From: Bifidobacterium tsurumiense
GTDB lineage: Bacteria; Actinomycetota; Actinomycetes; Actinomycetales; Bifidobacteriaceae
Length of the DNA stretch: 64,000 nucleotides
Direction of reading: 5' to 3'
Assembly (NCBI RefSeq): GCF_000741765.1
Contig: NZ_JGZU01000003.1
Span: 124,001 to 188,000, forward strand
How positions within the stretch are numbered: position 1 is the stretch's first letter; each line of letters opens with the position of its first letter. Made by a program: the position numbers and the translations under genes. The notes below the pieces were generated by a model. That model was not told the origin of the DNA, made no database searches, and saw only the letters and a program-made list of their open reading frames with translations. Positions 3,485 through 23,674 of the stretch are shown here, piece by piece.

Positions 3485-5752
3485 TCAGTGAAGACCGTCG
3501 GTTTCCTTTGCATATTCATCCAATAGGAATTGGGTCAACACCTTGCCATCCTTGCCCAGCAAAACCGACATGGAATTGATGGGCATGGCGTCCAGGAACA
3601 GCTCAGCGCCTAGATTGTTCTCCGGCAGAGCGGGGATGCGGCCGTCCCGGCCTTCTTCGAACATGCGCTTGACGATGGGACCGCCAACCGGATCCTTGCG
3701 CCACTCGGACATATTGGACCACTCATTCAAAGGAAGGCTCTTGCCGTCACCTTCCAGCTCAATATCCAAGCGTTCGACGATATCGCGACTCGAGGTCGCC
3801 ACCTCGATGCCATACGTTCCGGCTTCGATATGCCAATCATTGAAACGTTCGGACCAATATGCGAAGGCCCGCTCATCCAAATCGATGCTGATTTCCTTGG
3901 ATTCCCCGGCTTCCAGGAACACCTTGGCGAAGCCCTTGAGCTCATGCACAGGGCGAGCCACTTCTGATCGGCCCGGAGCCACATATATTTGCACCGTCTG
4001 AGCTCCGGCAGTCTGAGAGACATTGGTCACCGTCGCACGCACACATGCCGTATTGGCTCCTGTGCGCTCCACAGACACATTGTCAATGGAGAAATCGGAG
4101 TAGCTCAACCCAAATCCGAAGGGATATGCAACTTCCTTGGCATAGGTGTCGTAGTACCGATAGCCTACGAACACTCCCTCGCCATAATCGACATGACCCT
4201 CTTCGCCAGGCCAATTGAGCATGCTCGGATCGTCGAGGATGTTCAGCGGGATGGTTTGGGAGAGCTTTCCAGAAGGATTGACATCACCAAAGAGCATATC
4301 GGCGATCGCACCGCCACCGGACTGTCCCAGCAACCAGGTTTCCACAACGGCCTTGGCCTGATCTTGCCATGGCGTAAGCGAAACAACGGAACCATTGGAA
4401 AGCAATACGACCACATTGGCATTGGATTCCCGCACCTTGGACAACAATTCCAGTTGCTTTGCAGGAATATCCAATGACGTGCGGTCGAATCCTTCGGATT
4501 CCGCATATTCAGGCAGACCAAGGCACATCACTACCGCATCTGCTTTCGATGCAATATTCACCGCTTCATCGACAAGCGACTGCTCCTGCTCACCATCTTC
4601 CAAAGTGAATCCCGGAGCAAAATCATATTCGATGCCACGCTGCTGCAGAGCATCGAGCAGACTCGTCAACTGCGTAGGCGTGATATGCGAGGAACCACCA
4701 CCCTGATAACGCGGCGTACGCGCAAACTCACCGATTACCGCCACACGGGCATTCTTGGACAATGGCAATATATGTTCATCATTCTTCAAAAGCACCATGG
4801 ACTCGGCCGCGGCACGGCGCGCGATATCGTCATGAACCTGCGCATCAAAGCGATAGTCCTCAACGCTCATAGCCTGACGCGTCTTATTCACCAGACCGAT
4901 CATGCCCTGAGCCATGTCATCAAGCTGCTTTGGACTGATTCGACCATCTCGGGCCGCAGACACAATCTGATCATCGGTGAAGCTTGGAGGCATTTCCAGA
5001 TTCAGACCGGCATTCAACGAGGCCACTCGATCATGATCGGCACCCCAGTCACTCATGACGATGCCCTTGAATCCCCACTCCTTGCGCAGCACATCAGTGA
5101 GCAGCCAGCGGTTCTGTGCTGCATACACTCCATTGATGCGATTGTATGCGCACATAACCGTCCATGGCTGTGCGGTTTTGACAATATGCTCGAAAGCGGG
5201 CAGGTAAATCTCACGCAAAGCGCGTTGAGAAACGCGAGCATCGATGCGCAGACGATCCGTTTCCTGGTTATTGACGGCAAAATGCTTGAGCGAAGTGCCG
5301 ACACCCTTGGACTGCACGCCTTTGACAATGCCCACGGCTTCGTGACCAGCCAAATACGGATCCTCTGACCAATACTCGAAGCAGCGCCCGCCCAAAGGAT
5401 TGCGTTTGATATTGACTCCAGGCCCCAGAATCACCGCAACCTTTTCCTGAATGCACTCTTCGGCCATGGCCTGACCGACCTCTTCGACGAGTTCGGGATT
5501 CCATGTGCTTGACATCCCAGCCGCAGGAGGGAAGCATGTCGCCGGCACGGTATGCTCCAGATCAATGGCGCCTGTGTCGCCTGCGGTTTTGCGTAGGCCA
5601 TGAGGACCATCGGTAATCATATATCCCGGAATGCCTCGCTCCTCAATGGGCTGCAAATGCCATGCATCACCACCGGATGTCAAAGAAGCCTTCTCTTCCA
5701 AGCTCAGATCGTTGACACTTGGATATGTGGAAGATGATGTCTGCTCACTCAT
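3485..5752 (-). CDS. Glycoside hydrolase family 3, beta-glucosidase type
   Basis: A 755-residue GH3 enzyme without a signal peptide, so cytoplasmic. Order: N-terminal (alpha/beta)8-like domain with the catalytic nucleophile Asp235 in 'GIVMSDWGADHD', an alpha/beta sandwich domain with 'CLGLPEYAESEGFDR', and a C-terminal fibronectin-III-like domain around 'VTNVSQTAGAQTVQIYVAPG'. This is the full beta-glucosidase architecture; the upstream substrate-binding sequence 'KHFAVNNQETDR' is also typical. It should remove terminal beta-linked glucose (or another beta-hexose or pentose) from short glycosides. A GAGGAG ribosome site precedes the ATG. It is divergent from a TetR gene at 6003, with a 26-bp palindrome between them. 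Confidence 0.94.
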   Translation of the reverse strand: MSEQTSSSTYPSVNDLSLEEKASLTSGGDAWHLQPIEERGIPGYMITDGPHGLRKTAGDTGAIDLEHTVPATCFPPAAGMSSTWNPELVEEVGQAMAEECIQEKVAVILGPGVNIKRNPLGGRCFEYWSEDPYLAGHEAVGIVKGVQSKGVGTSLKHFAVNNQETDRLRIDARVSQRALREIYLPAFEHIVKTAQPWTVMCAYNRINGVYAAQNRWLLTDVLRKEWGFKGIVMSDWGADHDRVASLNAGLNLEMPPSFTDDQIVSAARDGRISPKQLDDMAQGMIGLVNKTRQAMSVEDYRFDAQVHDDIARRAAAESMVLLKNDEHILPLSKNARVAVIGEFARTPRYQGGGSSHITPTQLTSLLDALQQRGIEYDFAPGFTLEDGEQEQSLVDEAVNIASKADAVVMCLGLPEYAESEGFDRTSLDIPAKQLELLSKVRESNANVVVLLSNGSVVSLTPWQDQAKAVVETWLLGQSGGGAIADMLFGDVNPSGKLSQTIPLNILDDPSMLNWPGEEGHVDYGEGVFVGYRYYDTYAKEVAYPFGFGLSYSDFSIDNVSVERTGANTACVRATVTNVSQTAGAQTVQIYVAPGRSEVARPVHELKGFAKVFLEAGESKEISIDLDERAFAYWSERFNDWHIEAGTYGIEVATSSRDIVERLDIELEGDGKSLPLNEWSNMSEWRKDPVGGPIVKRMFEEGRDGRIPALPENNLGAELFLDAMPINSMSVLLGKDGKVLTQFLLDEYAKETDGLH

Positions 5753-5854
5753 AAGCTAACTCCTCGTTGCGGTATCAATCTCGGCGTTGAGCGCACGCTG
5801 TGCGGTTGATCGGCTGGAACCCGTTGCAATATGCCCATAACGGCCTATCCAAAT

Positions 5855-5880
5855 CTGTACCTACCGGTCGGTAGGTACAG
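5855..5880. promoter_or_regulatory. 26-bp palindromic operator between GH3 and TetR genes
   Basis: Perfect inverted repeat with 12-base arms CTGTACCTACCG (5855-5866) and CGGTAGGTACAG (5869-5880) around GT. It lies in the 250-bp divergent intergenic region between the GH3 gene (5752, minus) and the TetR gene (6003, plus). A -10-like TACACT on the minus strand (5879-5884) overlaps its edge, but no convincing -35 is visible. Most likely the binding site of the adjacent TetR protein. Confidence 0.8.
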
Positions 5881-6002
5881 TGTATCATGAATGTATTCGA
5901 CACACCACTCGCGACGAAGCGCAATTCGCTTCCGCAGGCGATATGTCAGGAAACAGGTATGGTAGAGGCATTCTCTACTGATTCCAGCAAGGACGGACAC
6001 GG

Positions 6003-6620
6003 ATGGCAACGGGCAGAGCATACGCCGGCACTTTTCAAGATGATCCCCACGGGGAATTGGATCGCAAGGCGCAGATCATGCGGTCCGCCGTGGAATGCTT
6101 CGGCAATCTGGGCTATTACGGCACATCCTTGCAACGCATCGCCAACCAAGTTGGCTTGACCAAACCCGGTCTGCTCCATTACATCGGCAGCAAAGAAGGC
6201 CTGCTGAATATGGTGCTCACCGAAATGTATGATATGGAAACCGACCGTATCGTCTCTGATCAATCCAAAGCCGGCCCCTTGCGCATCCCCTCGGTTATGA
6301 GAGCCATAGTCGCAGTGAACGCCCAACGCCCTCAACTCGTGCACATGTTCTCAACTTTGAGCGCCGAAGCACTCTCTCCAGAGCACCCAGCGCATGAATA
6401 CTTCCGTAACCGCGAGCGCGAAGGCGTTGATGCCATGATGAATATTGCATGGCTTGTCCCCGATGGAATCGATCTGAAAACGACCATCATTACGGCATGG
6501 AGTGCCATGGACGGCATCCAATTGCGTTGGCTGCGCTCCCCCGGCCAAGACCTCAATGCCATGTGGGCCGATTGCGAAAATACATTATTCCCACTGCCGG
6601 TTTGGGAGCACTACCGGTAA
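6003..6620 (+). CDS. TetR/AcrR-family regulator (glycosidase-associated, paralog 1)
   Basis: 205 residues. An N-terminal TetR helix-turn-helix is visible as 'TSLQRIANQVGLTKPGLLHYIGSKEGLL' (roughly residues 41-68), followed by an all-helical ligand domain. The C-terminus has 'MDGIQLRWL' and ends in 'FPLPVWEHYR'. The same two signatures occur in the TetR proteins at 9317-9958 and 15381-16016, so the three are paralogs. The start has AAGGA 9 bases upstream (5989-5993). It is divergent from the GH3 gene at 3485-5752 and presumably represses it through the palindrome at 5855-5880, with a sugar or glycoside as inducer (inference). Confidence 0.9.
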   Translation: MATGRAYAGTFQDDPHGELDRKAQIMRSAVECFGNLGYYGTSLQRIANQVGLTKPGLLHYIGSKEGLLNMVLTEMYDMETDRIVSDQSKAGPLRIPSVMRAIVAVNAQRPQLVHMFSTLSAEALSPEHPAHEYFRNREREGVDAMMNIAWLVPDGIDLKTTIITAWSAMDGIQLRWLRSPGQDLNAMWADCENTLFPLPVWEHYR

Positions 6621-6784
6621 TCAATCGACAATATTGCCGCCTGTTGGGCACTGCCCTCTTCCACAGTGCGGCACGATGCCATACACAACCGCCGCATGAC
6701 ATCGCACAGGCAATCGCAAGGGAATAATGGCATTTCATACGCCGGCAGGATCTCACGAAAACCTCTTCACACCGCCGAAAACAC

Positions 6785-6832
6785 CATTGCCGTTCGCCTG
6801 TACACACCATATTTCACAGACGAACGGCAATG
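6785..6832. terminator. Hairpin between convergent TetR and GH3 genes
   Basis: 12-base arms CATTGCCGTTCG (6785-6796) and CGAACGGCAATG (6821-6832) with a 24-base loop, located between the TetR stop (6620, plus) and the second GH3 stop (6850, minus). There is no T-tract, so its termination strength is uncertain. Confidence 0.5.
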
Positions 6833-6849
6833 AATGGTGATTCTGTAGA

Positions 6850-9186
6850 TCACACCACCATGAAGGTTGTGCGATGCAGGTCATCACGTCGACTCGAATG
6901 GCCGATCAGCAATTCGAATTCTCCCGGTTCGACAATGCGTTCCGCCCGGGCGTTCACAATCGTGCATTGCGCGACCGGAATATCGAATTCCACGGTCTTG
7001 CTCTCACCAGGCTCAAGGCTTACGCGCTTGAAGGCTTTGAGTTCACGGTCGGTCCAACTGTAGGACGTGACCATATCCCCGATATAGAGCTGCACCACTT
7101 CCGTTCCTGCGATATCACTCTCATTGCTCAGGGTGATTTCCGCATGGACCACATCGCCTTCTCGGAAATTGCCCTGCTCTCCCGTTCCCTCATTGGTTAT
7201 GAGAGGCTCAGAATAGGAGAATTTCGAATAGCTCAGTCCCTCACCGAAGGCAAATGCCGGATCCTGAGTCAGATCAGCGTAACGATTGCCATGCTGTCCG
7301 CGAATCTGGTTGTAATACACCGGCAGTTGTCCTGCATGACGCGGGAAGGTTATGGGCAGTCGGCCACTTGGGTTTGTTATACCGAGGATGATTTCGGCTA
7401 TGGCCTGACCGCCCTTCATGCCAGGGCTGGGAGCCCACAGCAGAGCGCTCGTGCCATTGGCTTTCGATTCATCGACTATCACTCCATTGGCACCGATAAC
7501 ACATGCGGGCAACACCATGGGCTTGGAACTCATCAACACCACGACCAACGGCCTCCCCGTTGTTTCTGCGACATGAGCAAGTGCCTCAAGCAGTGCATTC
7601 TGGCCACCCAGAAGTTCCAAAGTAGCCGTGGAACAGGTCTCACCGATGGTTTGCACCACATCGCCTACAACCGCAACCACCAGATCGCTTCGCTTCGCAT
7701 TATCCACGGCCTTGTCAATGAGCTTCTGGTCGACCTGCGCTGACACGCCGATCTTGGGACGAGGCTGCCCGTCGGGGAAGGTCTCCCCTTCCGGATCGGG
7801 AACCAAATCGACGATATTGGCGCCGCGCGAATACACCACTTCAGTGCTTTCATCCACCAAGGACCTGAAAGCGTCGAGCACCGTCGTGATCATATGACGA
7901 GGATGACCATCCGGCATCCAATTCACCTGACCTGAGTTGCCCGCCCAGTCACCCAGCTGACCTTGCGCATCGTCAGCCAATGGGCCGACCACTGCAATGC
8001 GCTTTGCATCCTTGCGTTGGAACGGCAAGGCGCCATCATTCTTCAACAATGTCACTGATTCCCTTGCCACCTGGAGATTCACTTCCTGGTGTTCAGCTGT
8101 TCCTATTTCTTGTTGTATGCGTTGCGCATCGGGAAGCCGTGGATCTTCGAAGAGACCCAAACGGAATTTCAGTGCCAAAATACGTTCCACGGCGGCATCG
8201 ATCAACCCTTCATCAAGCAGTCCACGATGCACCGCCTCGATTGCACCCTCATAGAATTGCGGCGTGGTCATGACCAAATCGTTGCCGGCTTTCACGGCAT
8301 CAGCTGCAGCATGCACATAATCCGGTTTGATATGCTGCTCCCACACGGCACGTCCGACATTATCCCAATCGGTTATCAGCGTGCCACGATAATCCCACTC
8401 GCCACGCAGCTTGTCAGACAGCAACCAGGAGTTGAAAGTTACCGGAACGCCGTCGATCGCCTCATATCCAAGCATGAAAGTTGCGCACCCCTCTTTGGCC
8501 ACGCGCTCAAAAGGAGGCAGGAACCAAGATTCCAGCTTGCGATGAGACAGATCTGCTTCAGAAGCATCACGGCCTCCCTGAGTCTCGGAATACCCCGCAA
8601 AATGCTTGGCACAAGCCAAAATGGCATCCTTAGGAAGTTCCTCACCTGCTTTGGCGCCGCCTTGGTATCCCCTCACCATTGCGGAGGCAAGCTCACCGAT
8701 GAGCATCGGATCCTCGCCGAAGGTCTCCCCCACACGACCCCAACGAGTATCGCGTCCTATGCACAGAACCGGAGAGAATGTCCAATGTACGCCAGTGGCA
8801 GACACTTCCTTTGCGGTAACGCGACCCAAAGCCTCGACTTTTTCAGGATCCCAACTCACGGCCATTCCCAACTGCTCAGGAAATATGGTCGCCCCGGGCC
8901 AGAAAGAATATCCATGGATGCAGTCATCGCCTATGACCAAAGGGATATGCAGACGTGTCTGAGTATTCACCATATCCACTGCGCGAGGAAGGTCTTTCGG
9001 CGAAGTATGCAGAATCGAACCGACATGTTTGTTGACGATGAGTTCTTCCAACTCGCCGCCACGGGCGTCAAGCTGCAGCATCTGCCCGACCTTCTCCTCC
9101 AGCGTCATACGCCCGAGCAAATCGGCTATGCGCTCTTGTGTTGGAAGATCAGGGTTCATATATGACAATTGGGTTTCGCCTGTCAT
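6850..9186 (-). CDS. Glycoside hydrolase family 3, second copy
   Basis: 778 residues from the start chosen. Starting at 9186 places GGAGG five bases upstream; the longer frame to 9258 would run through the promoter (-10 at 9230-9235) and operator, so I reject it. GH3 features: N-terminal domain with 'LPRAVDMVNTQTRLHIPLVIGDD', 'CAKHFAGYSETQGGRDASE', the nucleophile Asp273 in 'GTLITDWDNVGR', a middle sandwich domain with 'VAVVGDVVQTIGE', and a C-terminal fibronectin-III-like domain 'HAEITLSNESDIAGTEVVQLY'. There is no signal peptide, so it acts in the cytoplasm. The 'SRDTRWGR'-type loop (here GRDTRWGRVGETFGEDP) resembles GH3 enzymes active on beta-glucosides or beta-xylosides; specificity cannot be read from sequence alone. 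Confidence 0.93.
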   Translation of the reverse strand: MTGETQLSYMNPDLPTQERIADLLGRMTLEEKVGQMLQLDARGGELEELIVNKHVGSILHTSPKDLPRAVDMVNTQTRLHIPLVIGDDCIHGYSFWPGATIFPEQLGMAVSWDPEKVEALGRVTAKEVSATGVHWTFSPVLCIGRDTRWGRVGETFGEDPMLIGELASAMVRGYQGGAKAGEELPKDAILACAKHFAGYSETQGGRDASEADLSHRKLESWFLPPFERVAKEGCATFMLGYEAIDGVPVTFNSWLLSDKLRGEWDYRGTLITDWDNVGRAVWEQHIKPDYVHAAADAVKAGNDLVMTTPQFYEGAIEAVHRGLLDEGLIDAAVERILALKFRLGLFEDPRLPDAQRIQQEIGTAEHQEVNLQVARESVTLLKNDGALPFQRKDAKRIAVVGPLADDAQGQLGDWAGNSGQVNWMPDGHPRHMITTVLDAFRSLVDESTEVVYSRGANIVDLVPDPEGETFPDGQPRPKIGVSAQVDQKLIDKAVDNAKRSDLVVAVVGDVVQTIGETCSTATLELLGGQNALLEALAHVAETTGRPLVVVLMSSKPMVLPACVIGANGVIVDESKANGTSALLWAPSPGMKGGQAIAEIILGITNPSGRLPITFPRHAGQLPVYYNQIRGQHGNRYADLTQDPAFAFGEGLSYSKFSYSEPLITNEGTGEQGNFREGDVVHAEITLSNESDIAGTEVVQLYIGDMVTSYSWTDRELKAFKRVSLEPGESKTVEFDIPVAQCTIVNARAERIVEPGEFELLIGHSSRRDDLHRTTFMVV

Positions 9187-9210
9187 CAGAACCTCCACAT
9201 TGAAGTTAGT

Positions 9211-9258
9211 TACCAGTTGGTAGTTATAAATAGTAACAATAAGCTTTATGCTTGTCAA
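9211..9258 (-). promoter_or_regulatory. Promoter and palindromic operator of the second GH3 gene
   Basis: Minus strand: -35 TTGACA (9253-9258), 17-bp spacer, -10 TACTAT (9230-9235). Seven bases downstream comes the palindrome TACCAACTGGTA (9211-9222), placing it over the likely transcription start and 24 bases before the ATG. The core matches the operator at 5855-5880: both read CTACC-R-AC-Y-GGTA on the minus strand. A TetR-type repressor bound here would block initiation. Confidence 0.78.
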
Positions 9259-9316
9259 TTGCTTGATTTACCGAGGTTCCGCAGCGTGTCTTATGGCTCA
9301 CTCACCCATGCCACAC

Positions 9317-9958
9317 TCAACGATAACCATCCCACTGCGGAGAGGGGAACAGCATGGGTTCAAGGCTCATCCACTCCTCGACCAAATCCACTTCCGTATT
9401 GCTCAACCATTGCAACTGCACACCATCCATGACTTCCATGGCACGTCGAACCACCGGTTTCATATGCGCCTGCCATGGACGCAATGGCTCCGGAATAAGC
9501 CAGGGCAGAAGACTGTAGCCCTGCCATATCCCCTCATAGCGTTGCGCGAATTCGTCATGCAATGGGTGACTGGGATTGAACGACTCCGTTTGCAACATCG
9601 TAAACATCTGCACAAGCATGCGTCGTTGGGCATTGTATTGGACAAGATATCGCAGATATGCGGGGAACAACAGCCGATCCCGGGCACTACCGGGCAGTCC
9701 GGATGCCATGAAATCCTCAGGGCTTCCCATGCGGTTGTAATATTCCCGATACACCATGGACAGCAGATTGTCTTTGTTGCCCACATATCGGAGCACTCCC
9801 TGCTTGGAGATTCCGACACGATCCGCGACATCCTGAATCGATATTCCGTTGAATCCTCGCTCACTGATCAGCCGCACCGCTGCATCGAGGACTTCCGCAC
9901 GCCGTTCCTCCGGAGATTTGCGAACACGTTTCGCCGTCGACTTGATTGCCATATTCAT
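9317..9958 (-). CDS. TetR/AcrR-family regulator (glycosidase-associated, paralog 2)
   Basis: 213 residues. Helix-turn-helix 'ISIQDVADRVGISKQGVLRYVGNKDNLL' near residues 37-64; the C-terminus carries 'MDGVQLQWL' and ends 'FPSPQWDGYR', shared with the other two TetR proteins here. It lies 89 bases after the GH42 gene in the same direction and 130 bases before the GH3 gene, whose promoter-operator (9211-9258) follows it directly. It may be the last gene of the MFS-GH30-GH42 operon and control the downstream GH3. No clear ribosome site is seen; TTACACT ends just before the ATG. Confidence 0.9.
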   Translation of the reverse strand: MNMAIKSTAKRVRKSPEERRAEVLDAAVRLISERGFNGISIQDVADRVGISKQGVLRYVGNKDNLLSMVYREYYNRMGSPEDFMASGLPGSARDRLLFPAYLRYLVQYNAQRRMLVQMFTMLQTESFNPSHPLHDEFAQRYEGIWQGYSLLPWLIPEPLRPWQAHMKPVVRRAMEVMDGVQLQWLSNTEVDLVEEWMSLEPMLFPSPQWDGYR

Positions 9959-9974
9959 GAGTGTAATGCCTCTT

Positions 9975-10009
9975 GCCCAGCCATAACGACACGGTCATCA
10001 CAGCTGGGC
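9975..10009 (-). terminator. Weak hairpin between GH42 and TetR genes
   Basis: 7-base arms GCCCAGC (9975-9981) and GCTGGGC (10003-10009) with a 21-base loop, in the 89-bp gap between the GH42 stop and the TetR start. It could be an attenuator that lowers TetR expression relative to the enzymes, or a binding site. It is weak as a terminator. Confidence 0.3.
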
Positions 10010-10047
10010 GCAAGGACAATCAGACATATCGAACAGTAATCCTCGAT

Positions 10048-12186
10048 TCAACTCATGACTACGACCAGATTCCATGCAGGCACGACCAGATCCTCACCTT
10101 GAGAGACCTGATGGCCTTGCTGAAGAGCCTGGTTTCGGGTGGCCTCCTCATCCACTGTGCCATCGAATGAGATGATGCGCGGCGCAACTACCACCGTGCC
10201 GGAGACAGGACTTGGCGCCGAAACCTCAGCATCCGAATAATTCAACATGTAGGTCAGCGTGCGACCTTGAGCATTTTCGCCTTGCCGCACGCTCAATACC
10301 CCCGCGAGCGCCAAGCCGACTCCCGCAACTCCCGCATGTTCCACAGCTTCACGCATTACATTGCGCAGCACATCCTCTTGAAGATCGGTAGCGATCCATT
10401 CAGCATCTCCATCACCGAAGGAATGTCTGGTTATCGCGGCGTAAGCGCCCCACGCATAGTGTCGGTAGCGCGCCAACACTTCGCAGTCAGTGTCCGGTTT
10501 GAGCAACTCGATGATGTCTCGCGCCTCGGCTCCGTCCAAATCATCCAATGGGCCGTTGAATTCCACAGCAACCGATTGCGGACGAGTGAACTGGTTGTAA
10601 CTCATGCCGAACACATCATGCAGGTCATGCGGCGCCTTGTCATGCCAAACAGTGACATCCTCGTTCGAGACAAAAGATCGCATGGTCGAGACCAAATGCC
10701 CTCCTTGACGAACGTAATCTCGCAGAGCGTCTATCGTGTTTTGCGAAGCGCAATACAATGCCGGAGTAATAACCATGCCATAGCGCGAAAGCGTGTCGTT
10801 CGAGGCATCCGTCGGAATGAAATCGCACTCAACATTCAAATCGAATAATGCGTCATACACTCGCCGCACCACTTCGTTATATCCAGTCTGTTCCTCCCCG
10901 GAGCCGAGCCGACTCCCACTGCCCGCACCATACGGATAGAAGCGCTGCATAGCATTCAACGATTCATTGGACACCATAATCGCCACCGCATTATGTTTGC
11001 GCATATGAATCAGCTGCGAAGCCAATGGATCCTGCGCAATTTCGCGACCGAATACGCCTGCTTCGCGATATGTGGGATTGGGTTCCAAATCATGGCTCAG
11101 CAGTCCACGCCAATAGGTTTCGAAGGAGTTATGAATGGAATGCCAATGCCAATACATCACACCATCGGCACCTGACGCCAGATGGCTGTAGGCCTGCAGC
11201 CTCAATTGCCCGGGGTACGGCAGCCATCCATGCTGCCCCTGCGCTTCGGTTTCCAGGACGATGTAATTGCGTCCTCCCTTGACACTGCGCGAGACATCAC
11301 CGCCGAAGGCAATTTCCTTGCCAGTCAAGCCGTCTTCTGAGGGATGATAGATATCCACGCCGGCGATATCCACGGCTTCGGCGGCTTTGAAATGATCTAC
11401 CGCAGGTTGAATGCCGAAGGAATATCCACGCCAGTCGTAATCGAAGTTATGCGTTATGAACTGGTCATCTCGCGCAACCTCGCGCACGATATCGCCCTGC
11501 CATTGGAGGAATTTGGCGACCTGGGACCTACGGAAAGCGTCAAATGCGCCACTGAGCGAAGCGTTGATGGAGTTGGAAACATCCGGGAAGTCCTCCCACG
11601 CATCAATGCGATTCGACCAATAATCCAAGCCGAATGCGGCATTCATGGCATCCAGGTCATCATGGAAGCGCTTGCGCAGATGCTTGACGAACAGCATCTG
11701 CATATCAGGACTGACCGAATCGTAATACTTGGTTTCATTGTCGATTTGATACCCGATAACCGAGGGATGATAGGCGACATGAGAGATCAGTGCGCGTATC
11801 ACCCGCTCTCCGTAATATCGATATGCGGGGTTGACGATATCCATAATCTGGCGAGGACCGTATTTGCCTTGGCCGGCGGGGGTTTGGGCCAGAACATCAG
11901 GATGCATTCGCACCAGCCACGCCGGAACGGCATAGGTCGGCGTTCCAACGATTACCTGAATGCCATATCGCCGTGCCGCATCCAGGGCCCTGTCAATATG
12001 GGTGAAATCAAACTCCCCCGGCTGCGGTTCACATGTGCTCCAGGTGGATTCGGCGATACGGATCACATTGATTCCCGCATCGCGCATCATCTGCATATCA
12101 GTATCAATGCGATCGATATCGCGCGGAATGTATTCGTCATAGTATGCAGCACCGAACAATATGCGATCTACTGCTGTTTTGGCCAT
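10048..12186 (-). CDS. Glycoside hydrolase family 42, beta-galactosidase type
   Basis: 712 residues. Three GH42 parts are visible: an N-terminal (alpha/beta)8 barrel starting 'FGAAYYDEYI', a trimerisation domain, and a C-terminal beta domain. Catalytic acid/base is Glu151 in 'QIDNE'; the nucleophile is Glu312 in 'IVLETEAQGQHGW'. 'YWHWHSIHNSFETYWRG' is the conserved substrate-site region. There is no signal peptide. The enzyme should cleave terminal beta-galactosyl (or a related beta-glycosyl) residues in the cytoplasm. AAGGAG precedes the ATG. It follows the GH30 gene by 83 bp in what looks like one operon with the MFS carrier, so transport and hydrolysis are co-expressed. Confidence 0.93.
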   Translation of the reverse strand: MAKTAVDRILFGAAYYDEYIPRDIDRIDTDMQMMRDAGINVIRIAESTWSTCEPQPGEFDFTHIDRALDAARRYGIQVIVGTPTYAVPAWLVRMHPDVLAQTPAGQGKYGPRQIMDIVNPAYRYYGERVIRALISHVAYHPSVIGYQIDNETKYYDSVSPDMQMLFVKHLRKRFHDDLDAMNAAFGLDYWSNRIDAWEDFPDVSNSINASLSGAFDAFRRSQVAKFLQWQGDIVREVARDDQFITHNFDYDWRGYSFGIQPAVDHFKAAEAVDIAGVDIYHPSEDGLTGKEIAFGGDVSRSVKGGRNYIVLETEAQGQHGWLPYPGQLRLQAYSHLASGADGVMYWHWHSIHNSFETYWRGLLSHDLEPNPTYREAGVFGREIAQDPLASQLIHMRKHNAVAIMVSNESLNAMQRFYPYGAGSGSRLGSGEEQTGYNEVVRRVYDALFDLNVECDFIPTDASNDTLSRYGMVITPALYCASQNTIDALRDYVRQGGHLVSTMRSFVSNEDVTVWHDKAPHDLHDVFGMSYNQFTRPQSVAVEFNGPLDDLDGAEARDIIELLKPDTDCEVLARYRHYAWGAYAAITRHSFGDGDAEWIATDLQEDVLRNVMREAVEHAGVAGVGLALAGVLSVRQGENAQGRTLTYMLNYSDAEVSAPSPVSGTVVVAPRIISFDGTVDEEATRNQALQQGHQVSQGEDLVVPAWNLVVVMS

Positions 12187-12269
12187 GGGATCTCCTTAGA
12201 TTCCGCTTGATCAACTCGATTGGCGACTGTGCCGTTCCCGCGCCAATTCGAGTATCAGTTCTTCTTTGG

Positions 12270-13616
12270 CTATTTCTCGAGTACGAATGTATTGAAGGAC
12301 CGTGGTGCCAGCTTCACCGATACCGCCAAGGACGGGTTGCGCGGATCGGCAAAATCGAATGGCAATTCACGTTCCAAGGCATTCTGCACCACAATGACCA
12401 CTGAGCCATCGGGATTGCGCAAGGCGATGCCCATGGCATTGAAGTGACCTGTTGCGCCCAGCACCACTGCGCCAGGGCGCACATACTTCGAGAAGTGCCG
12501 CATAACATACCACTCCGGATTGCGTGTGATCTCGCCCGTCTTGCTATCCACGCTGTAGAGCGAATTTTGCTGCCATCCCCAGGTGCTCACGATCTCGGTC
12601 AGCACCATATTCCAATAGGTATATGCTGTCGCGCCATTGCGCAGATAATGATTGATGAGGTGGAAAATGTATTCCGCATATTCCCAGGAATTATCGCCCA
12701 TGCCGCATTCCGACTCGGTCATGAGCAGCTCAAGCTCGGGCCATGACTGGTGCGTGCGCGCGATGGCATGCTGCCCTGCCCACTGGTAGCCCACCCCTGC
12801 GATGTATTTCCTGGCTTCATCATCAAAGAGGATATTGTCGACATAGCGACTGTAATTATCCAATTTCATGCCATAGCCGCCACCTGTCCAGGACATATCC
12901 TCAGGACCATTCAGCGTACCTAGGAAAATGGCGGTATCAATGCCTTCCTGTGCGAAAATCGGCCCCAGATAATCACGCACGAACACTCTCATATCCTCGC
13001 TCGACCACAGACAGCTGGGGAATTTCTGGTCAGCGAAAACCTCATTCTGCACATGGAGCTGATTGATGTGAATGCCTCGCTCCGCATACGTCTTGATGTA
13101 TTTGACGAAATAATGGGCATATGCGGTCAGGTTTTCAGGCGTCATCACGATGCGACCGAAATTGTATACCTTGGGGAACTTCATCCAAGTGGGCGGACTC
13201 CAAGGACTTGCAAAGAGTTGCAGATCGGGCTGATATTGCTGCGCCTTGCGAATATACGGCACCAATGTGGAATCATCGTGCTCCACACTGAAATGCTTGA
13301 GATCGTAATCGCCATCCTCTTCGTCGTAGCTATACCACTGTTCCGCGAAATCATTGGCTCCCACAGGCGTGCGATTGAAGGTGAAATTCAATTCTTCCGG
13401 ACTGAACAGCTCGCGGAACACGGTTTCTCGGTCTTCGGCACTGACGTATTTGGTAAGCGCTTGGTATCCGAGCTCATTGAAGCATCCCCCGAAGCCGCGT
13501 AGCTTCTGGAATTCTTCACCGTTGAGTTGCAGCCCCTGAGCGCTTGAGGCAGAGAGCCGTTCCAGAGTCGTTTCCACTAGGCGATGTTCGGGCGTGGATG
13601 CGATCCATATTGACAT
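12270..13616 (-). CDS. Glycoside hydrolase family 30 (glucosylceramidase / beta-1,6-glucanase type)
   Basis: 448 residues with the GH30 plan: a catalytic barrel beginning 'LRGFGGCFNELG' and a C-terminal beta domain. Acid/base Glu192 lies in 'HVQNE' and the nucleophile is Glu301 in 'LMTESECG'. Related enzymes act on beta-glucosides, beta-1,6-glucans or beta-xylosides; the exact substrate is unknown. There is no signal peptide, so the substrate must be imported, presumably by the MFS protein 49 bases upstream. AAGGA at 7-base spacing precedes the start. Together with GH42 and the GH3 enzymes it points to a beta-linked heteroglycan or gentio-type oligosaccharide (inference). Confidence 0.92.
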   Translation of the reverse strand: MSIWIASTPEHRLVETTLERLSASSAQGLQLNGEEFQKLRGFGGCFNELGYQALTKYVSAEDRETVFRELFSPEELNFTFNRTPVGANDFAEQWYSYDEEDGDYDLKHFSVEHDDSTLVPYIRKAQQYQPDLQLFASPWSPPTWMKFPKVYNFGRIVMTPENLTAYAHYFVKYIKTYAERGIHINQLHVQNEVFADQKFPSCLWSSEDMRVFVRDYLGPIFAQEGIDTAIFLGTLNGPEDMSWTGGGYGMKLDNYSRYVDNILFDDEARKYIAGVGYQWAGQHAIARTHQSWPELELLMTESECGMGDNSWEYAEYIFHLINHYLRNGATAYTYWNMVLTEIVSTWGWQQNSLYSVDSKTGEITRNPEWYVMRHFSKYVRPGAVVLGATGHFNAMGIALRNPDGSVVIVVQNALERELPFDFADPRNPSLAVSVKLAPRSFNTFVLEK

Positions 13617-13665
13617 GACGACGTCCTTTCTTGAGAAGATCGATGCGATATTGCGGCGGAAATCA

Positions 13666-14994
13666 TTAATCCACAGACTTGATAGACATTATGAAAATGC
13701 AGCCAAGCAGTGCGAATACGATGGCCACGGGGAACGCGACGGAATACCCCACGCTGACCACCAAGGTCGACATGACCACAGGACCCAGCATCTGGCCAAT
13801 TGTTGTGGCCAGATTCAGCACTCCCAGATCCTTGCCGGCTTCTTCCTTATTGGGCAGCACATCCACATTGAGCGCCTGATCGACCGAGGAATACACCCCA
13901 TACCCCAGACCGCCGATGCCCGCGAACAGATACATGCCCAAGGTCGAATGCAGAACCCACGGCAAGACGATACCAATTGCAAACAGCACCGACGCCACCA
14001 CCACTGGGATCTTCCTGCGACCAATAAGATCAGAAATCGGACCTGCCAGAAGCGAGCCCAACAATGAGACCACCATGGTGATTACAGACATTGTGGCAAT
14101 GGCGACGCCTGCATCGGTTACGCTGAGTCCCACGTAGTTTTCCAGAATGAACAATTGATAGATGGATATCATCTGATAGCTCAGCAGCATGCACAAACGC
14201 CCTGCAAACGCCTTGTAAAAATCATGAGCGACGGAAAAACGCGGCGGAGTAAAGCTTTTGAGCACATCAAGGAAGGTTTCCTTATCCGTGGGCAGATAGT
14301 CAGCCGGCCCTTCTTTGGGCAATATGATCACGGCAACGATGCCGCCAAGGAACATCAATACGCCCGCGAGCGCGAATCCCGGCGCACGATTGGTGATGAA
14401 GTATGCACCCAACAATGTGCCTATAGGTGCGCCAACCGTCTGTCCTGCTCCGAAGAACGCCGACATGGTGCCGCGCATTCCTGAGGGAATTCTGTCGGAA
14501 ATCATGGCGACCATGGGCGCCAGCATGCAGTTCAATCCGAACATGCACAGGCAATACACCACAGTAAGCAGAACAGGGTTAAACGTCATGCCGGTGAGAA
14601 ATAGCGTCACACCACCCAGAACCGCTCCCGCAAGGATAAACGGCGTTCGCCTTCCCCTCCGCGAACGGGAACGGTCGGAGAAGTTGCCGAACAGGAGGTT
14701 GGCGATAAGGGATGCGAAAGCCGTGAATGCATTCACCACACCCACCAAAACGTCCGGAGATACGCCCTCGACGCTTTTGTAATGTTCCGGGAGTAGGACT
14801 GCAGAGACCATGCCCAATCCCGACATCCACAGTATGCCGAACACCAGGAAACCGATTCCAAAACGGATTCTGGTCTGGGACGGCATCGGTTTGCCGGTTT
14901 CCGGAGAAAGCGTTGGATCTGCTTCTGCAGCCATAACCGCATTGCGATGAAGAGCCCACCGCAATCCCATATCCATGGGCATCCTATCTTCCAT
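13666..14994 (-). CDS. MFS sugar transporter (GH30/GH42 operon)
   Basis: 442 residues from the start preceded by GGAAAGG at 7-base spacing. The frame is open to 15030 but without a ribosome site there. Twelve hydrophobic segments; after the second comes the MFS loop 'GNFSDRSRSRRGRRTPFI', and a second copy 'GPISDLIGRRKIPVV' occurs between helices 8 and 9. This arrangement suits a proton-coupled sugar or glycoside carrier. It is the first gene of the operon with GH30 and GH42, directly behind the promoter-operator at 15061-15116, and most likely imports their substrate. Confidence 0.9.
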   Translation of the reverse strand: MEDRMPMDMGLRWALHRNAVMAAEADPTLSPETGKPMPSQTRIRFGIGFLVFGILWMSGLGMVSAVLLPEHYKSVEGVSPDVLVGVVNAFTAFASLIANLLFGNFSDRSRSRRGRRTPFILAGAVLGGVTLFLTGMTFNPVLLTVVYCLCMFGLNCMLAPMVAMISDRIPSGMRGTMSAFFGAGQTVGAPIGTLLGAYFITNRAPGFALAGVLMFLGGIVAVIILPKEGPADYLPTDKETFLDVLKSFTPPRFSVAHDFYKAFAGRLCMLLSYQMISIYQLFILENYVGLSVTDAGVAIATMSVITMVVSLLGSLLAGPISDLIGRRKIPVVVASVLFAIGIVLPWVLHSTLGMYLFAGIGGLGYGVYSSVDQALNVDVLPNKEEAGKDLGVLNLATTIGQMLGPVVMSTLVVSVGYSVAFPVAIVFALLGCIFIMSIKSVD

Positions 14995-15060
14995 GACGAG
15001 GCCTTTCCAATATTGATATTCAATGGTCATCTTTGACGATGCATCGTTGCTTATCCAATT

Positions 15061-15116
15061 TATCTAATAATTATTAGATATAAAATGAGCATATGCTTCT
15101 TTGCCATGGATGTCAA
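15061..15116 (-). promoter_or_regulatory. Promoter and 20-bp palindromic operator of the MFS-GH30-GH42 operon
   Basis: Minus strand: perfect -35 TTGACA (15111-15116), 17-bp spacer, -10 TATGCT (15088-15093), then after seven bases the perfect palindrome TATCTAATAATTATTAGATA (15061-15080). The spacing (17 bp, then 7 bp to the operator) is the same as at the second GH3 promoter (9211-9258). The operator would cover the transcription start. Confidence 0.82.
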
Positions 15117-15380
15117 TCCCGCAATATGAATACAAGATGGAATAATAGCAACAAAGGCTGCAAAACAAGCTAGTTGATTGATAATCCTAATAGACTATGG
15201 CAGTCAAAGACCTCGTAAACGCAAGTCTCCATATTCGCCGACCATGGTTCCATATATGAAATATATCGCAATAATTCGCAAATATATTGAATATTTATTA
15301 AGTATCAAAATGCGGCATCTCCCCATACCAAAACAGCGCCATAGTATCCCTGCTACGAGCGTTCATGCCAAGACATTGTG
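15117..15380. other. AT-rich intergenic stretch between TetR and MFS genes
   Basis: With the promoter-operator this makes a 386-base gene-free gap (14995-15380). The remainder is AT-rich with short in-frame stops in all frames and no convincing gene, hairpin terminator or RNA. It may hold a long 3' end of the TetR transcript. Confidence 0.5.
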
Positions 15381-16016
15381 TCAGCGATATAAATCCCACA
15401 GAGGCGAGGGGAAAATCATTCGCTCGAATGTCACCCACTCATCCACCAGATCGATGGGTGGCTCACGCAGCCATCTGAGCTGAATGCCATCCATGGCTTC
15501 CAGGCTTCGACGCACAATCGGCCTCATATTCGCATCCCAAGACCCCATATGCGGAGGAATTCTCCATGGGATTTCGCTGTATTTCTCCCATACCGAGTCC
15601 GGGCGATGCAGGAAATAATCATAGAGCGGATGCTCCGGATTAAACGCCTCGGTTTCCAAAACCATATACAACCGAACCAAAGACCGGCGTTGAGCATTAT
15701 GGCGCACCAAAAAACGCAGGTATGCGGGGAAGAACGGCCCATCCGGATCGCTGCCGGGCAGACCCGATGCCATAAAATCAGCAGGTGTGCCTGAAGTATC
15801 GTAAATATCGGTGACCAAGAGGGAAAGCAAGCCTTCGCGATTGCCCACATAATGCAGCAATCCCGGTTGAGAAATCCCCACTTCCTGTGCAATATCCTTC
15901 AGGGACAATCCGTTGAATCCCCCACGCTCAGTCACCAGACGAGCGGTGACCTCTACGATTTCGCGCTTGCGTTCTTCAGGATCCTTGCGGATACGCTTCT
16001 TTGTCCCTTGAGCCAT
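15381..16016 (-). CDS. TetR/AcrR-family regulator (glycosidase-associated, paralog 3)
   Basis: 211 residues. Helix-turn-helix 'LSLKDIAQEVGISQPGLLHYVGNREGLL' around residues 38-65; the C-terminus contains 'MDGIQLRWL' and ends 'FPSPLWDLYR', matching the two other TetR proteins in this window. It lies upstream of, and in the same direction as, the MFS-GH30-GH42 operon, whose promoter-operator follows it. It probably represses that operon through the 20-bp palindrome. There is no Shine-Dalgarno sequence; TACACT ends six bases before the ATG, so a leaderless transcript is possible, although no good -35 is seen. Confidence 0.9.
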   Translation of the reverse strand: MAQGTKKRIRKDPEERKREIVEVTARLVTERGGFNGLSLKDIAQEVGISQPGLLHYVGNREGLLSLLVTDIYDTSGTPADFMASGLPGSDPDGPFFPAYLRFLVRHNAQRRSLVRLYMVLETEAFNPEHPLYDYFLHRPDSVWEKYSEIPWRIPPHMGSWDANMRPIVRRSLEAMDGIQLRWLREPPIDLVDEWVTFERMIFPSPLWDLYR

Positions 16017-18850: not shown

Positions 18851-21800
18851 TCAGAAGACTGGCGTAGCCGCCTTTTTTGCCGCGGCGATCATCAGCTTGA
18901 TGCGATTGAGCTGATTGGCCTCGGATGCGCCCGGATCGTAATCGATGCTTACGATATTGGCCTGAGGATGCAAGCGCCGTATCTTGCCGAACATGCCTCG
19001 CCCCGTCACGTGGTTGGGCAGACATGCGAAGGGCTGTGCGCACACGATATTAGGACAACCCGACTCAATGAGCTCCACGATTTCGGCAGTGAGCAGCCAT
19101 CCTTCCCCTGCCTGAACGCCGACAGAGGTTACTTCTGCCGCCTTTTCCACCAATTCGGGCATCGGCAGATCCTGACTGAATTTGCCGTGGGATGCAGCTA
19201 TGGCCTTGCGGACCGGGCTGAGATATCGATCGACGCCCCACCTCATGATGGCATAGACCACGGGATTACCCTTCATGCCCAGATTGTGTTCATTCCAATC
19301 AGCTGTGTATGGCCTGGTGGTCATGAACTCCATGATTCCTGGCACCACGGCCTCGCAATCCTGTGATTCGATGACATCAACCAAATGGTTATTGGCATCG
19401 GGATGGTATTTCACCAGGATCTCGCCGACCACACCAACCCGCGGCTTGCGTGGGATATCACGCAAGGGCAAGGCGTCGAAGCTACGCACTATCTCCTTGA
19501 CCAGAACCCCATATGGCAAATATCGCTTGCCAATATTGCGTGCCGCAGTATCCGAGAACCCGTGATGTTCCAAAGTCTCTCGCACTATGGCATCCCACAT
19601 GCCATACAATGCGTCAGCACTGCCCGCCTCTTGTTCGTACGGCCTTACGCGTCTGAGGCATTTGAGCAGCAGATCGCCGATGACCAAGGCCTTCACAGCC
19701 CTATGCAGCAGCGCCGGAGTCACTGAAAAACCGGGATTATCCGCAATTCCCTGCGTAGTGAGCGCCAATACAGGCACTTGCGGGTAGCCGGCATCGATAA
19801 GGGCCTTGCGAATCAGGCCGAAGTAGTTGGTCGCCCTGCACATGCCACCGGTTTGCGTGATGGCCAATGCCACGTGATCGGGGTCATATTTGCCTTGGAC
19901 GATGGCGTCAACCAATTGACCTACCACCATAATCGCCGGATAACACGCATCGTTATTCACATATTTCAGGCCTATTTCCACATCATCACGGTCGGCTTGT
20001 TTCAAAATGTCGAATTTGTATCCGCCGGAACGAATGACCGATTCGATAAGTGACATATGAATAGGGCTCATCTGCGGGGCGACAATGGTGTAATCCTTGC
20101 GCATCCGCTTGGTGAAGGCAACCTTATGCGCATATCGCGAGAGCGTGGCCGCATGCGCAGGGGAAGTCTGCGATTGGTGAGACTGCCCCTCTCGTTTCGT
20201 TGGATGCACAGTCTTGCCTTTGCCGTTGAGATGTTTGCTGGATTGCAATACCGCATCAAGCATGGCTTGACGCCCCGGAGTCGGCGCAGGTTTGCCCGTT
20301 GCCCGGAAATGGGATGTTGGCACGTCATGATCAAGACCCGTGTCCTGCGTCTGTTCCGCAACTTTGAGGCGCTCTTCAGCTTTGGCCAACGCCTGACGTG
20401 CCTGTTCGACCTGCTGCCGAGCCGCTTTCAAAGCCGCGTCGTTTTCGGATTGACCATTGACGCTAGCTTCGTGCTGAACATGTGCAATACGTCTCTGATT
20501 GGCTTCACGTTCCTCAACAGCAGCCTTCAAGGAGCGCAACCTGATCTTTGCAGCTCCCAGATTGCTGACCTCGTCGATTTTCAGCAGCGTGTAGACATCT
20601 GCCTTGTCCGCAAGGATCTCACTGACCTGATCTGTGGTGATGGCGTCCAAACCGCAGCCGAAGGAATTGAGCTGAACCAGTTCCAAGCCTGGATACGAAG
20701 CGACAAATTGCGCCGCCGCATACAATCGTGAATGATACGCCCACTGATTGGTGACGCGCAGCGGCATCTTCGTCACCTTGCGGTCTTCGACATGCCGGAA
20801 GCCCGCCTTATCTTTGGCACGCGGATTGAGTTCATCCCTGTCGAGATATTCACTGATCTGCAAGGTATCTTCAGGATTCAGATTGCTTATTGAATCCTCA
20901 GAAAGCACCACCATGCCCAGAGAGCAAATGGTTTCAGGAATGCCGTGATTGACCTCGGGATCGATATGATACGGCCGTCCTGCCAGCACAATTCCACGGC
21001 AATGGTGTTCCTTCATATAAGCCAAGGCACGCACGCCTTCTTTGCGGACATCATCGCGGAATACCACACTTTCCGCGTATGCCGCCTTGACTGCGACTTG
21101 TGCCTCTTCACGACTGACATTGGCCCACGCGAATTCCTCCACTATGCGATCCACCATCAGTTCATGATCGGCCATATTGAAATACGGCTTCATAAATCGA
21201 ATGCCAGGCTGCCTCAACTGCGGCATATTCGCTTCGATAACCACAGGGTAATTGGCGACGATCGGGCAGTTGTAATGGTTATCCGCATCATCCACGAACT
21301 GTTCCTCATAGGATACGCAAGGATAGAAAATCGTCTTGATGCCCTTGTCCAAAAGCCATGTGATATGCCCGTGCACAAGCTTCGCAGGATAGCAGATATT
21401 CTCCGAGGCTATGGACTCTATGCCTTTCTCAAACAGCTCATGATTGGATCTGCCGGAGATGACCACTTTGAATCCCAGAGACGTCAGCAGGGTGAACCAG
21501 AAGGGGTAATTCTCATACATGTTGAGCACGCGCGGAATGCCGATCTCCCTTCGCGTGGCCTTCTTGTCGGTAAGTCGGCGGTATGCGAAGCAACGCTTGT
21601 ATTTGTAGTCGTAGAGATTGGGTCTGTCAGAACGCTGCTTGGTGGCATCGCCGCCGCGCTCGCATCGATTCCCGCTGACATATCGCGAACCATCATGGAA
21701 TGTGGTAATGGTTAGTTTGCAATGGTTTTGGCATAGCTTGCACACATCACGCTCAGTGGTCATGGACAGTTCATCCAGTTCCTCACCGCTCAGAATGCTC

Positions 21801-23674
21801 GACTGAGTGTGCTGTGCAGGATCGTTGGCATCGTGACCATCAGTAGCAGCGAAATCGCCTTGTTCGAACTCATCCACATAATGCATGCGGGCGGTCAGCG
21901 CTGCGCCATATGCGCCCATCAATCCGGCGATATTAGGACGTGTGACTTCCCTGCCGGTAAGCAATTCGAATGCACGCAGCACCGCATCATTCAAGAATGT
22001 GCCGCCTTGAACCACGACGGTGTCTCCCAGCTCTCCGGCATCACGAAGCTTGATTACCTTGTACAGGGCATTACGCACCACCGAATAGCACAATCCAGCG
22101 GCGATATCTTCGATTGAGGCACCCTCTTTTTGGGCCTGCTTCACCGATGAATTCATAAATACCGTGCAACGGGAGCCCAAATCCACCGGATGCTCAGAGC
22201 GCAGAGCGGCCTGCGTGAATTCCTCAATGCTCAGTCCCATGGAACGGGCGAAGGTCTGCAGGAATGAACCGCAGCCCGCCGAACAGGCCTCATTGACGGC
22301 TATCGAATCGATAACGCCATCGGTTATGGCCAGATATTTCATATCCTGACCGCCTATGTCGATAACCGCGGTGACTCCTGGACTGACCAGTTCCGCACCG
22401 CGATAATGGGCCATGGTTTCCACCACTCCCTCATCAAGATGCAAACCCGTCGAAATCAGCCCTTCGCCATAGCCTGTGGCGCAACTGCGCGCAATATATG
22501 CACCTTGAGGAAGGCTCGACTGAACACGTTTGACGATATCCACAGCAGCAGTCAAAGGGTTGCCGTCATTCGTGGCATATGAGGACCACAAAATATCGCG
22601 GTCATCATTGACCAGTGTTGCTTTGATGGTCGTCGAACCGGCATCGATCCCGAGGAAATGCGGGCCGCTGGCGCCATCGAGATTCCCTATCTGGACGTGT
22701 GACTTGTTATGCCTTGCCTCGAATGCATGACGCTTCTCGTCTGAGGCAAATAAAGTGGGCATAGTAGGCGTATTGCCAATCACATTCTGCAGCGATTTCA
22801 CTTCGTCGATAAGCGCCTGGCATGATTCTGCACGAAGAGGCGTGTCGAGGCTTTCAGGCTCCCCTGCCATCAATGCCGCACCGAAGGCCACATACAAATG
22901 GGCGCTCTTAGGCACCACAAACTCATCGACTTTGCCTTCCAGAGCGCGGTGGAAGGCCTCGCGCAACTGCGAAAGGAAGAACAGCGGGCCTCCAAGGAAA
23001 ATAACCGTGCCATGGATGGGTCTGCCCGATGCCAAACCTGCAATGGTTTGCGTTGCGACAGCGGTAAAAATAGAAGCGGCCAGATCAGGCTTCTCGGCAC
23101 CGTCATTGATCAGTGGCTGCAAATCAGATTTGGCAAATACTCCGCAACGCGAGGCAATGGGATAGAGCGTCGTGTATTGCTTGGCATAAGCATCCAAACC
23201 CGAGGCATCAGTATCGAGCAGAGTGGCCATCTGATCGATAAAAGCGCCGGTTCCTCCTGCACAGGAGCCGTTCATGCGCTGCTCAGGAGTTGGTTTCAGA
23301 TAGGTTATTTTGGCGTCTTCGCCACCGAGTTCGATAATCACATCGGCTTGAGGATATTCCTGATCAATGGCTCTTGTTTCTGCAATGACCTCCTGCACAA
23401 AAGGCACATGCAGGCTATCCGCCAGTCCCAGACCGCCCGATCCGGTTATGGTGAGCGCCAGCTGCTGATCCTCTCTGCCCTGCTTGCGCAATTCGGACTG
23501 CACATCCTGAAGCAGTTCAGCCACTGTTGCGCGCACATTGGCGTGGTGACGACGGTAATCTGCAAACAATACTTGTTCCAGACTGTCTCCGTCTTCCAAC
23601 ACCACGGCCTTTACGGTGGTCGAACCAATATCGAGCCCGACACGCAGAGTTGCTGAATCAGATTTCGTGTGCAT
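18851..23674 (-). CDS. Giant 2-hydroxyacyl-CoA dehydratase activase-like protein
   Basis: About 1607 residues. Two ASKHA ATPase (BcrA/BadF/BadG/BzdQ) domains in tandem: 'GLDIGSTTVKAV' near residue 15 and 'GIDAGSTTIKATL' near 340. Each has the two cysteines that bridge a [4Fe-4S] cluster in HgdC-type activators (SCAGGTGAF with SRCGVF; ACSAGCGSF with SRCTVF). Then follow a DUF2229-type region with 'CKLCQNHCKL' and a C-terminal part like the dehydratase subunits ('YPAIMVVGQLVDA'), joined by a charged coiled-coil linker rich in Ala, Glu and Gln. The start at 23674 has GAGGG upstream. Such long activases occur in many anaerobes. No dehydratase partner lies in this window, so its target is unknown. 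Expected oxygen-sensitive and cytoplasmic. Confidence 0.88.
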   Translation of the reverse strand: MHTKSDSATLRVGLDIGSTTVKAVVLEDGDSLEQVLFADYRRHHANVRATVAELLQDVQSELRKQGREDQQLALTITGSGGLGLADSLHVPFVQEVIAETRAIDQEYPQADVIIELGGEDAKITYLKPTPEQRMNGSCAGGTGAFIDQMATLLDTDASGLDAYAKQYTTLYPIASRCGVFAKSDLQPLINDGAEKPDLAASIFTAVATQTIAGLASGRPIHGTVIFLGGPLFFLSQLREAFHRALEGKVDEFVVPKSAHLYVAFGAALMAGEPESLDTPLRAESCQALIDEVKSLQNVIGNTPTMPTLFASDEKRHAFEARHNKSHVQIGNLDGASGPHFLGIDAGSTTIKATLVNDDRDILWSSYATNDGNPLTAAVDIVKRVQSSLPQGAYIARSCATGYGEGLISTGLHLDEGVVETMAHYRGAELVSPGVTAVIDIGGQDMKYLAITDGVIDSIAVNEACSAGCGSFLQTFARSMGLSIEEFTQAALRSEHPVDLGSRCTVFMNSSVKQAQKEGASIEDIAAGLCYSVVRNALYKVIKLRDAGELGDTVVVQGGTFLNDAVLRAFELLTGREVTRPNIAGLMGAYGAALTARMHYVDEFEQGDFAATDGHDANDPAQHTQSSILSGEELDELSMTTERDVCKLCQNHCKLTITTFHDGSRYVSGNRCERGGDATKQRSDRPNLYDYKYKRCFAYRRLTDKKATRREIGIPRVLNMYENYPFWFTLLTSLGFKVVISGRSNHELFEKGIESIASENICYPAKLVHGHITWLLDKGIKTIFYPCVSYEEQFVDDADNHYNCPIVANYPVVIEANMPQLRQPGIRFMKPYFNMADHELMVDRIVEEFAWANVSREEAQVAVKAAYAESVVFRDDVRKEGVRALAYMKEHHCRGIVLAGRPYHIDPEVNHGIPETICSLGMVVLSEDSISNLNPEDTLQISEYLDRDELNPRAKDKAGFRHVEDRKVTKMPLRVTNQWAYHSRLYAAAQFVASYPGLELVQLNSFGCGLDAITTDQVSEILADKADVYTLLKIDEVSNLGAAKIRLRSLKAAVEEREANQRRIAHVQHEASVNGQSENDAALKAARQQVEQARQALAKAEERLKVAEQTQDTGLDHDVPTSHFRATGKPAPTPGRQAMLDAVLQSSKHLNGKGKTVHPTKREGQSHQSQTSPAHAATLSRYAHKVAFTKRMRKDYTIVAPQMSPIHMSLIESVIRSGGYKFDILKQADRDDVEIGLKYVNNDACYPAIMVVGQLVDAIVQGKYDPDHVALAITQTGGMCRATNYFGLIRKALIDAGYPQVPVLALTTQGIADNPGFSVTPALLHRAVKALVIGDLLLKCLRRVRPYEQEAGSADALYGMWDAIVRETLEHHGFSDTAARNIGKRYLPYGVLVKEIVRSFDALPLRDIPRKPRVGVVGEILVKYHPDANNHLVDVIESQDCEAVVPGIMEFMTTRPYTADWNEHNLGMKGNPVVYAIMRWGVDRYLSPVRKAIAASHGKFSQDLPMPELVEKAAEVTSVGVQAGEGWLLTAEIVELIESGCPNIVCAQPFACLPNHVTGRGMFGKIRRLHPQANIVSIDYDPGASEANQLNRIKLMIAAAKKAATPVF

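Follow-up and report, generated by a model that had tools for sequence, protein, structure and literature searches.

A 12.5-kb block in a 64,000-nt stretch of Bifidobacterium tsurumiense DNA (contig NZ_JGZU01000003.1; hereafter the window) very probably encodes three local repressor circuits of the BgrT type for taking up plant-type glycosides and hydrolysing them inside the cell. Three TetR genes (T1, T2 and T3) are interleaved with hydrolase and carrier genes in the order GH3a(-), T1(+), GH3b(-), T2(-), GH42(-), GH30(-), MFS(-), T3(-), where the signs give the strand. We propose that T1 (BgrT1-like), bound to a candidate operator O1, would repress the divergent genes GH3a and T1; that T2 (BgrT2-like) would act on O2 to repress GH3b; and that T3 (BgrT3-like) would act on O3 to repress MFS-GH30-GH42, and also T2 in the event of read-through. 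Both O2 and O3 are immediately downstream of -10 boxes, so a repressor bound there would block RNA polymerase until released by an imported glycoside or a product of it. The three TetR genes are present with the C-termini and the MDG motif reported in a preliminary description of the locus, and family profiles confirm the two GH3 proteins, GH42, GH30 and the MFS carrier that it had named as neighbours. The host assembly (2.16 Mb in 25 contigs) is of Bifidobacterium type, and the nearest named relatives returned by searches were Bifidobacterium species. Genes, candidate operators and promoter-like sites are as follows.

3485 to 5752, minus strand: GH3a, intracellular hydrolase of family GH3, probably an exo-alpha-(1->6)-L-arabinopyranosidase and beta-glucosidase-like (NF041610, structure match 5wab)
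5855 to 5880: O1, T1-class candidate operator in the intergenic region of the divergent genes GH3a and T1; core of the motif at 5858-5877, palindrome with perfect 12-nt arms CTGTACCTACCGGTCGGTAGGTACAG
6003 to 6620, plus strand: T1, predicted TetR repressor, BgrT1-type, divergent from GH3a (PF00440, tree clade)
6850 to 9186, minus strand: GH3b, intracellular GH3 hydrolase of 778 aa, close to 5z9s (family profile, structure match, GGAGG before ATG)
9207 to 9226: O2, T2-class candidate operator, imperfect palindrome TAGTTACCAGTTGGTAGTTA, before GH3b and just downstream of the promoter -10 (relatives' motif)
9230 to 9258, minus strand: GH3b promoter-like site, TTGACA-17-TACTAT, extended -10, ending 3 bp before O2
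9317 to 9958, minus strand: T2, predicted TetR repressor, BgrT2-type, between GH42 and GH3b (PF00440, tree clade)
10048 to 12186, minus strand: GH42, probable alpha-L-arabinopyranosidase (match to 5xb7, W359)
12270 to 13616, minus strand: GH30, glucosylceramidase-like (GH30_1-type) beta-glucosidase (family profile, structure match)
13666 to 15030, minus strand: MFS glycoside importer, predicted first gene of the operon (PF07690, 139.7 bits)
15061 to 15080: O3, T3-class candidate operator, perfect palindrome TATCTAATAATTATTAGATA, before MFS and just downstream of the promoter -10 (relatives' motif)
15088 to 15116, minus strand: MFS operon promoter-like site, TTGACA-17-TATGCT, ending 7 bp before O3
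15381 to 16016, minus strand: T3, predicted TetR repressor, BgrT3-type (PF00440, tree clade, AlphaFold model)

Candidate operators and their placement

The sequences upstream of GH3a, GH3b and MFS in relatives only, with the window left out, were used to fit palindromic motifs; motif scans covered the window, and relaxed-pattern operator counts covered the whole genome. The best match of each relatives-only motif in the 64 kb (28.9 bits at 5858, 26.1 bits at 9207 and 24.5 bits at 15061) compares with maxima of 18.1 (O1), 20.2 (O2) and 17.8 (O3) bits in 200 first-order shuffles; these scores are descriptive, since the relatives are not independent samples, and the shuffles bear only on chance matches within the window. 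Leave-one-out sorting of the operators gave 64/64, a figure that is partly circular because the sites had been pre-sorted by type and that is not used as proof. At up to two mismatches the genome holds one copy of the O1 pattern and one of the O3 pattern (control 0). The O2 pattern occurs once exactly, once with one mismatch (C15:316142-316161, outside the locus) and at two unrelated sites with two mismatches. Judged from sequence, there are three operator classes, one per TetR clade, placed at the promoters of the locus.

Promoter-like matches as a whole did not exceed those in shuffles in number; placement is what supports the two listed sites. The start of GH3b was moved from TTG 9258 to ATG 9186 because the TTG overlaps the promoter and operator, and GGAGG precedes the ATG. 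A variant palindrome, TATCGAATnnnnATTCGATA, is found before T3 at six relatives' loci and suggests autoregulation of T3 there; the window does not have it.

Control of efflux is a common role of TetR regulators, and an ABC transporter and a MarR gene adjoin GH3a. That drug efflux or lipid genes are the targets of the three TetR proteins, with the glycosidases as neighbours by chance, is nevertheless extremely improbable, and we reject this reading on operator placement: the three classes lie before glycosidase and MFS genes, a pairing conserved in many species. Control of unrelated genes, an outcome that the preliminary description had allowed for, is likewise not what we found, as the candidate operators of all three proteins are on genes of the locus.

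The TetR paralogues and the BgrT group

T1, T2 and T3 have the motif MDG[IV]QL[RQ]WL and an FPxPxWxxYR tail in common and score 36.9, 43.6 and 29.0 bits against TetR_N (PF00440; Pfam cut-off 24). Identity to T2 is 54% for T3 and 35% for T1. The exact tail is found in 76 of the 116 BgrT-like proteins of relatives' loci, and at least PxPxW near the end in 102 of them, which argues for a clade-wide family signature and not a chance likeness; the tail peptide was not among the peptides used to fetch these relatives. The glycoside gene neighbourhood recurs across Bifidobacterium. A related protein with a C-terminus of about EWKxLIDLLIP in place of FPxPxWxxYR, here called TetR4-like, stands between GH42 and MFS at seven relatives' loci. 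The B. tsurumiense genome itself has two further BgrT-like TetR genes elsewhere, by their scores to the three-protein model, at C4:157207-157839 (177 bits) and C5:55131-55688 (158 bits), the latter keeping an FPLPHWEGYR tail.

Phylogenetic analysis groups T1-T3 with Bifidobacterium, Galliscardovia and Oerskovia relatives from glycoside loci (published BgrT proteins are not in the tree). The three fall into separate supported clades of 23, 30 and 34 rows for T1, T2 and T3 respectively, which points to old paralogues. Support for the T1 clade is 100/98; the tree has long branches, and the position of T1 inside its clade is less sure. The recognition-helix residues (SQPGLLHY for the T3 clade, SKQGVLRY for T2 and TKAGVLHY for T1) vary in step with the operator class. 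The earlier view of three paralogous TetR regulators, serving a locus for MFS import and intracellular breakdown of glycosides, is supported. The helix of T1 in the window (6150-6210) reads KPGLLHY, where most of its clade has KAGVLHY, and resembles the T3 clade.

An AlphaFold model of T3 has the full TetR fold, with a mean predicted local distance difference test (pLDDT) score of 91.5 and a non-helical tail (residues 202-211) with pLDDT around 90. Searching with this fold returned general TetR relatives, none of them sugar-specific at the top; GusR/UidR (PDB 6ayh), which we take to be the TetR-family repressor of beta-glucuronide genes, was among the matches, but weakly (template-modelling score 0.55, 14% identity), and other TetR structures ranked higher. 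When solved structures were searched with the TetR profile, the matches were mostly to the DNA-binding domain.

A three-protein alignment scan of bacterial genomes found 74 loci, nearly all in Bifidobacterium, with others in Galliscardovia, Bombiscardovia and Oerskovia; 77 of 112 genomes of the genus have at least one strong match. Many species keep the gene order between glutamate-cysteine-ligase/activator genes and MarR/ABC genes, and B. olomucense and B. scaligerum carry one block T3-MFS-GH42-GH30-T2-GH3b-T1-GH3a. At the two Oerskovia loci, a T3-type TetR gene accompanies MFS, GH30 and GH42. The protein forms a long branch inside the T3 clade of Bifidobacterium, and the locus may represent a transfer between families.

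In ten bifidobacterial genomes, Khoroshkin et al. (2016; PMC4746261) described 23 TetR regulators, BgrT1-BgrT8, adjoining beta-glucoside or beta-galactoside genes, each group with its own palindrome of 18-22 nt; the regulons are local, as those predicted here would be. The window proteins resemble them in several respects. They adjoin glucosidase- or galactosidase-type genes and an MFS gene; O1, O2 and O3 are 20 bp each, one class per clade, before the target genes; and in relatives a T2-class site lies in the divergent region between TetR4 and MFS, as described for BgrT2. By these sequence features (partners, operator length and the BgrT2-type site) the window proteins match the published group, and the system is already known. 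What differs is that the window puts three groups into one 12.5-kb block, with T2 in line with the operon predicted to be under T3. The preliminary description had called TetR control unusual for bifidobacterial sugar loci. It is indeed less common (LacI 63%, ROK 16% and TetR 7% of sugar regulators in the ten genomes), but it had been published as BgrT (PMC4746261). In the literature searched, no experiments with BgrT proteins were found beyond the 2016 paper and one citing it. Knowledge of the BgrT group is unchanged by this locus, a well-preserved further example. The locus brings three related TetR proteins and three distinct candidate operators, nearly unique in the genome, into one compact natural set, and could be used to ask how glycoside sensing arose among TetR proteins and how pairs of repressor and operator diverge.

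Several points weigh against three self-contained circuits. The support in this genome is sequence comparison, and the pairing of T1 with BgrT1, T2 with BgrT2 and T3 with BgrT3 rests on partners and on the described architecture. In the window, none of T2, T3, GH30 and GH42 was found to have an operator-like site upstream, which leaves T1 as the one regulator whose position suggests autoregulation. Moreover, O1 scores 17.7 bits with the O3 matrix after removal of some O2-type sites, which had inflated the first value to 22.6 bits, and cross-binding of T3 at O1 is therefore possible. Some such cross-binding is conceivable, given that the helix of T1 in the window departs from its clade and that O1 outscores O2 on the T3 matrix. 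An alternative reading is that the three TetR proteins share operators and act as redundant repressors of one common switch. All three candidate operators are 20-bp palindromes with related ends, and with their matrices exchanged O1 and O2 score 15-16 bits. However, at each window site the own-class matrix beats the others by at least 10 bits, and the recognition helices differ among the clades; we regard a common switch as quite improbable.

A possible cascade from T3 to T2

The separate circuits that we favour leave room for one connection, namely a layered relay in which T3 controls MFS-GH30-GH42-T2 and T2 controls GH3b. The first inducer would open import and raise the second repressor, and a second signal, for example a hydrolysis product, would remove T2 and open GH3b. 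The only hint of a hierarchy is the position of T2, downstream of GH42 and collinear with the operon predicted to be controlled by T3: it starts 89 bp past GH42 on the same strand, and neither an operator-like site nor a predicted terminator was found in the gap. T2 is also close behind GH42 or GH30 in B. aerophilum, B. miconis, B. biavatii, B. olomucense and B. scaligerum. A cascade within the group has been published for two species, in which BgrT2 controls bgrT4 and bglT (PMC4746261), and a T2-class site is present between TetR4 and MFS in the relatives B. kashiwanohense, N4G05, moukalabense and pongonis; this gene pair is absent from the window.

Against a relay, T2 in B. pullorum and its subspecies gallinarum stands outside the MFS operon, divergent from GH3b and with an O2 site between them. 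T1 has its own candidate operator and no visible link to T2 or T3. The preliminary description had proposed that successive hydrolysis products relieve successive repressors; this element is unsupported. A separate operator class and a separate predicted transcript go with each TetR protein. We consider the layered relay rather unlikely. A true two-step cascade, in which T3 sets the amount of T2 so that import of a 1,6-linked glycoside primes the system and a second signal releases GH3b, is also unlikely in our view, though the question is worth testing. If true, it would constitute an ordered sugar-uptake programme made of TetR proteins.

Enzymes and likely substrates

The three predicted circuits would serve a set of hydrolases in which no signal-peptide-like N-terminus was seen by hydropathy, in agreement with the earlier claim that all of them lack signal peptides. 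GH3a scores 1408.6 bits against the exo-alpha-(1->6)-L-arabinopyranosidase model NF041610 and passes its curated cut-off of 1300; its nearest solved structure is 5wab, named a putative beta-glucosidase. GH3b falls below the cut-off of the exo-beta-1,3/1,6-glucosidase model NF052331 (1214.1 against 1330 bits) and is nearest to 5z9s, which we take to be the GH3 saponin beta-glucosidase of B. longum. GH30 resembles glucosylceramidases and is a conserved neighbour of GH42 and MFS. The MFS carrier gave no match in a search of solved structures.

GH42 scores 1039 bits to 5xb7, the GH42 alpha-L-arabinopyranosidase BlArap42B of B. lactis, compared with at most 177 bits for other GH42 structures. According to a review, the hallmark of GH42 alpha-L-arabinopyranosidases is a Trp that replaces the His contacting the C6-OH of galactose; W359 of the window protein aligns with this specificity residue, Trp358 of 5xb7. 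BlArap42B is thus the best solved-structure match with the specificity Trp kept, and the activity of the window enzyme is predicted from it. GH3a and GH42 both probably are alpha-L-arabinopyranosidases by these comparisons. The preliminary label of a beta-glycoside locus is therefore incomplete, although partly right.

A similar cluster, Balac_0052-0054, has been described in B. animalis subsp. lactis Bl-04 (Andersen et al., 2013; PMC3684542) and likewise combines GH30_1, GH42 and MFS genes; the window has two GH3 genes and two further TetR genes in addition. Gentiobiose induced the B. lactis GH42 gene 6.5-fold and the MFS gene 4.8-fold, with the GH30_1 gene beside them (PMC3684542), and we infer that the induced GH42 is BlArap42B. 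The enzyme set and this induction favour the hypothesis that the locus is directed at 1,6-linked plant disaccharide glycosides such as gentiobiosides and arabinopyranosyl-glucosides. Gentiobiose or similar 1,6-linked disaccharide glycosides would then be the inducers of T3, and glucosides and alpha-L-arabinopyranosides the substrates. Plant arabinopyranosides and gentiobiosides are accordingly a likely food of the bacterium, a prediction that can be tested.

Beyond T3, at 18851-23686, the window encodes a 1611-aa protein that, judged by eye, resembles the 2-hydroxyacyl-CoA dehydratase activator type.

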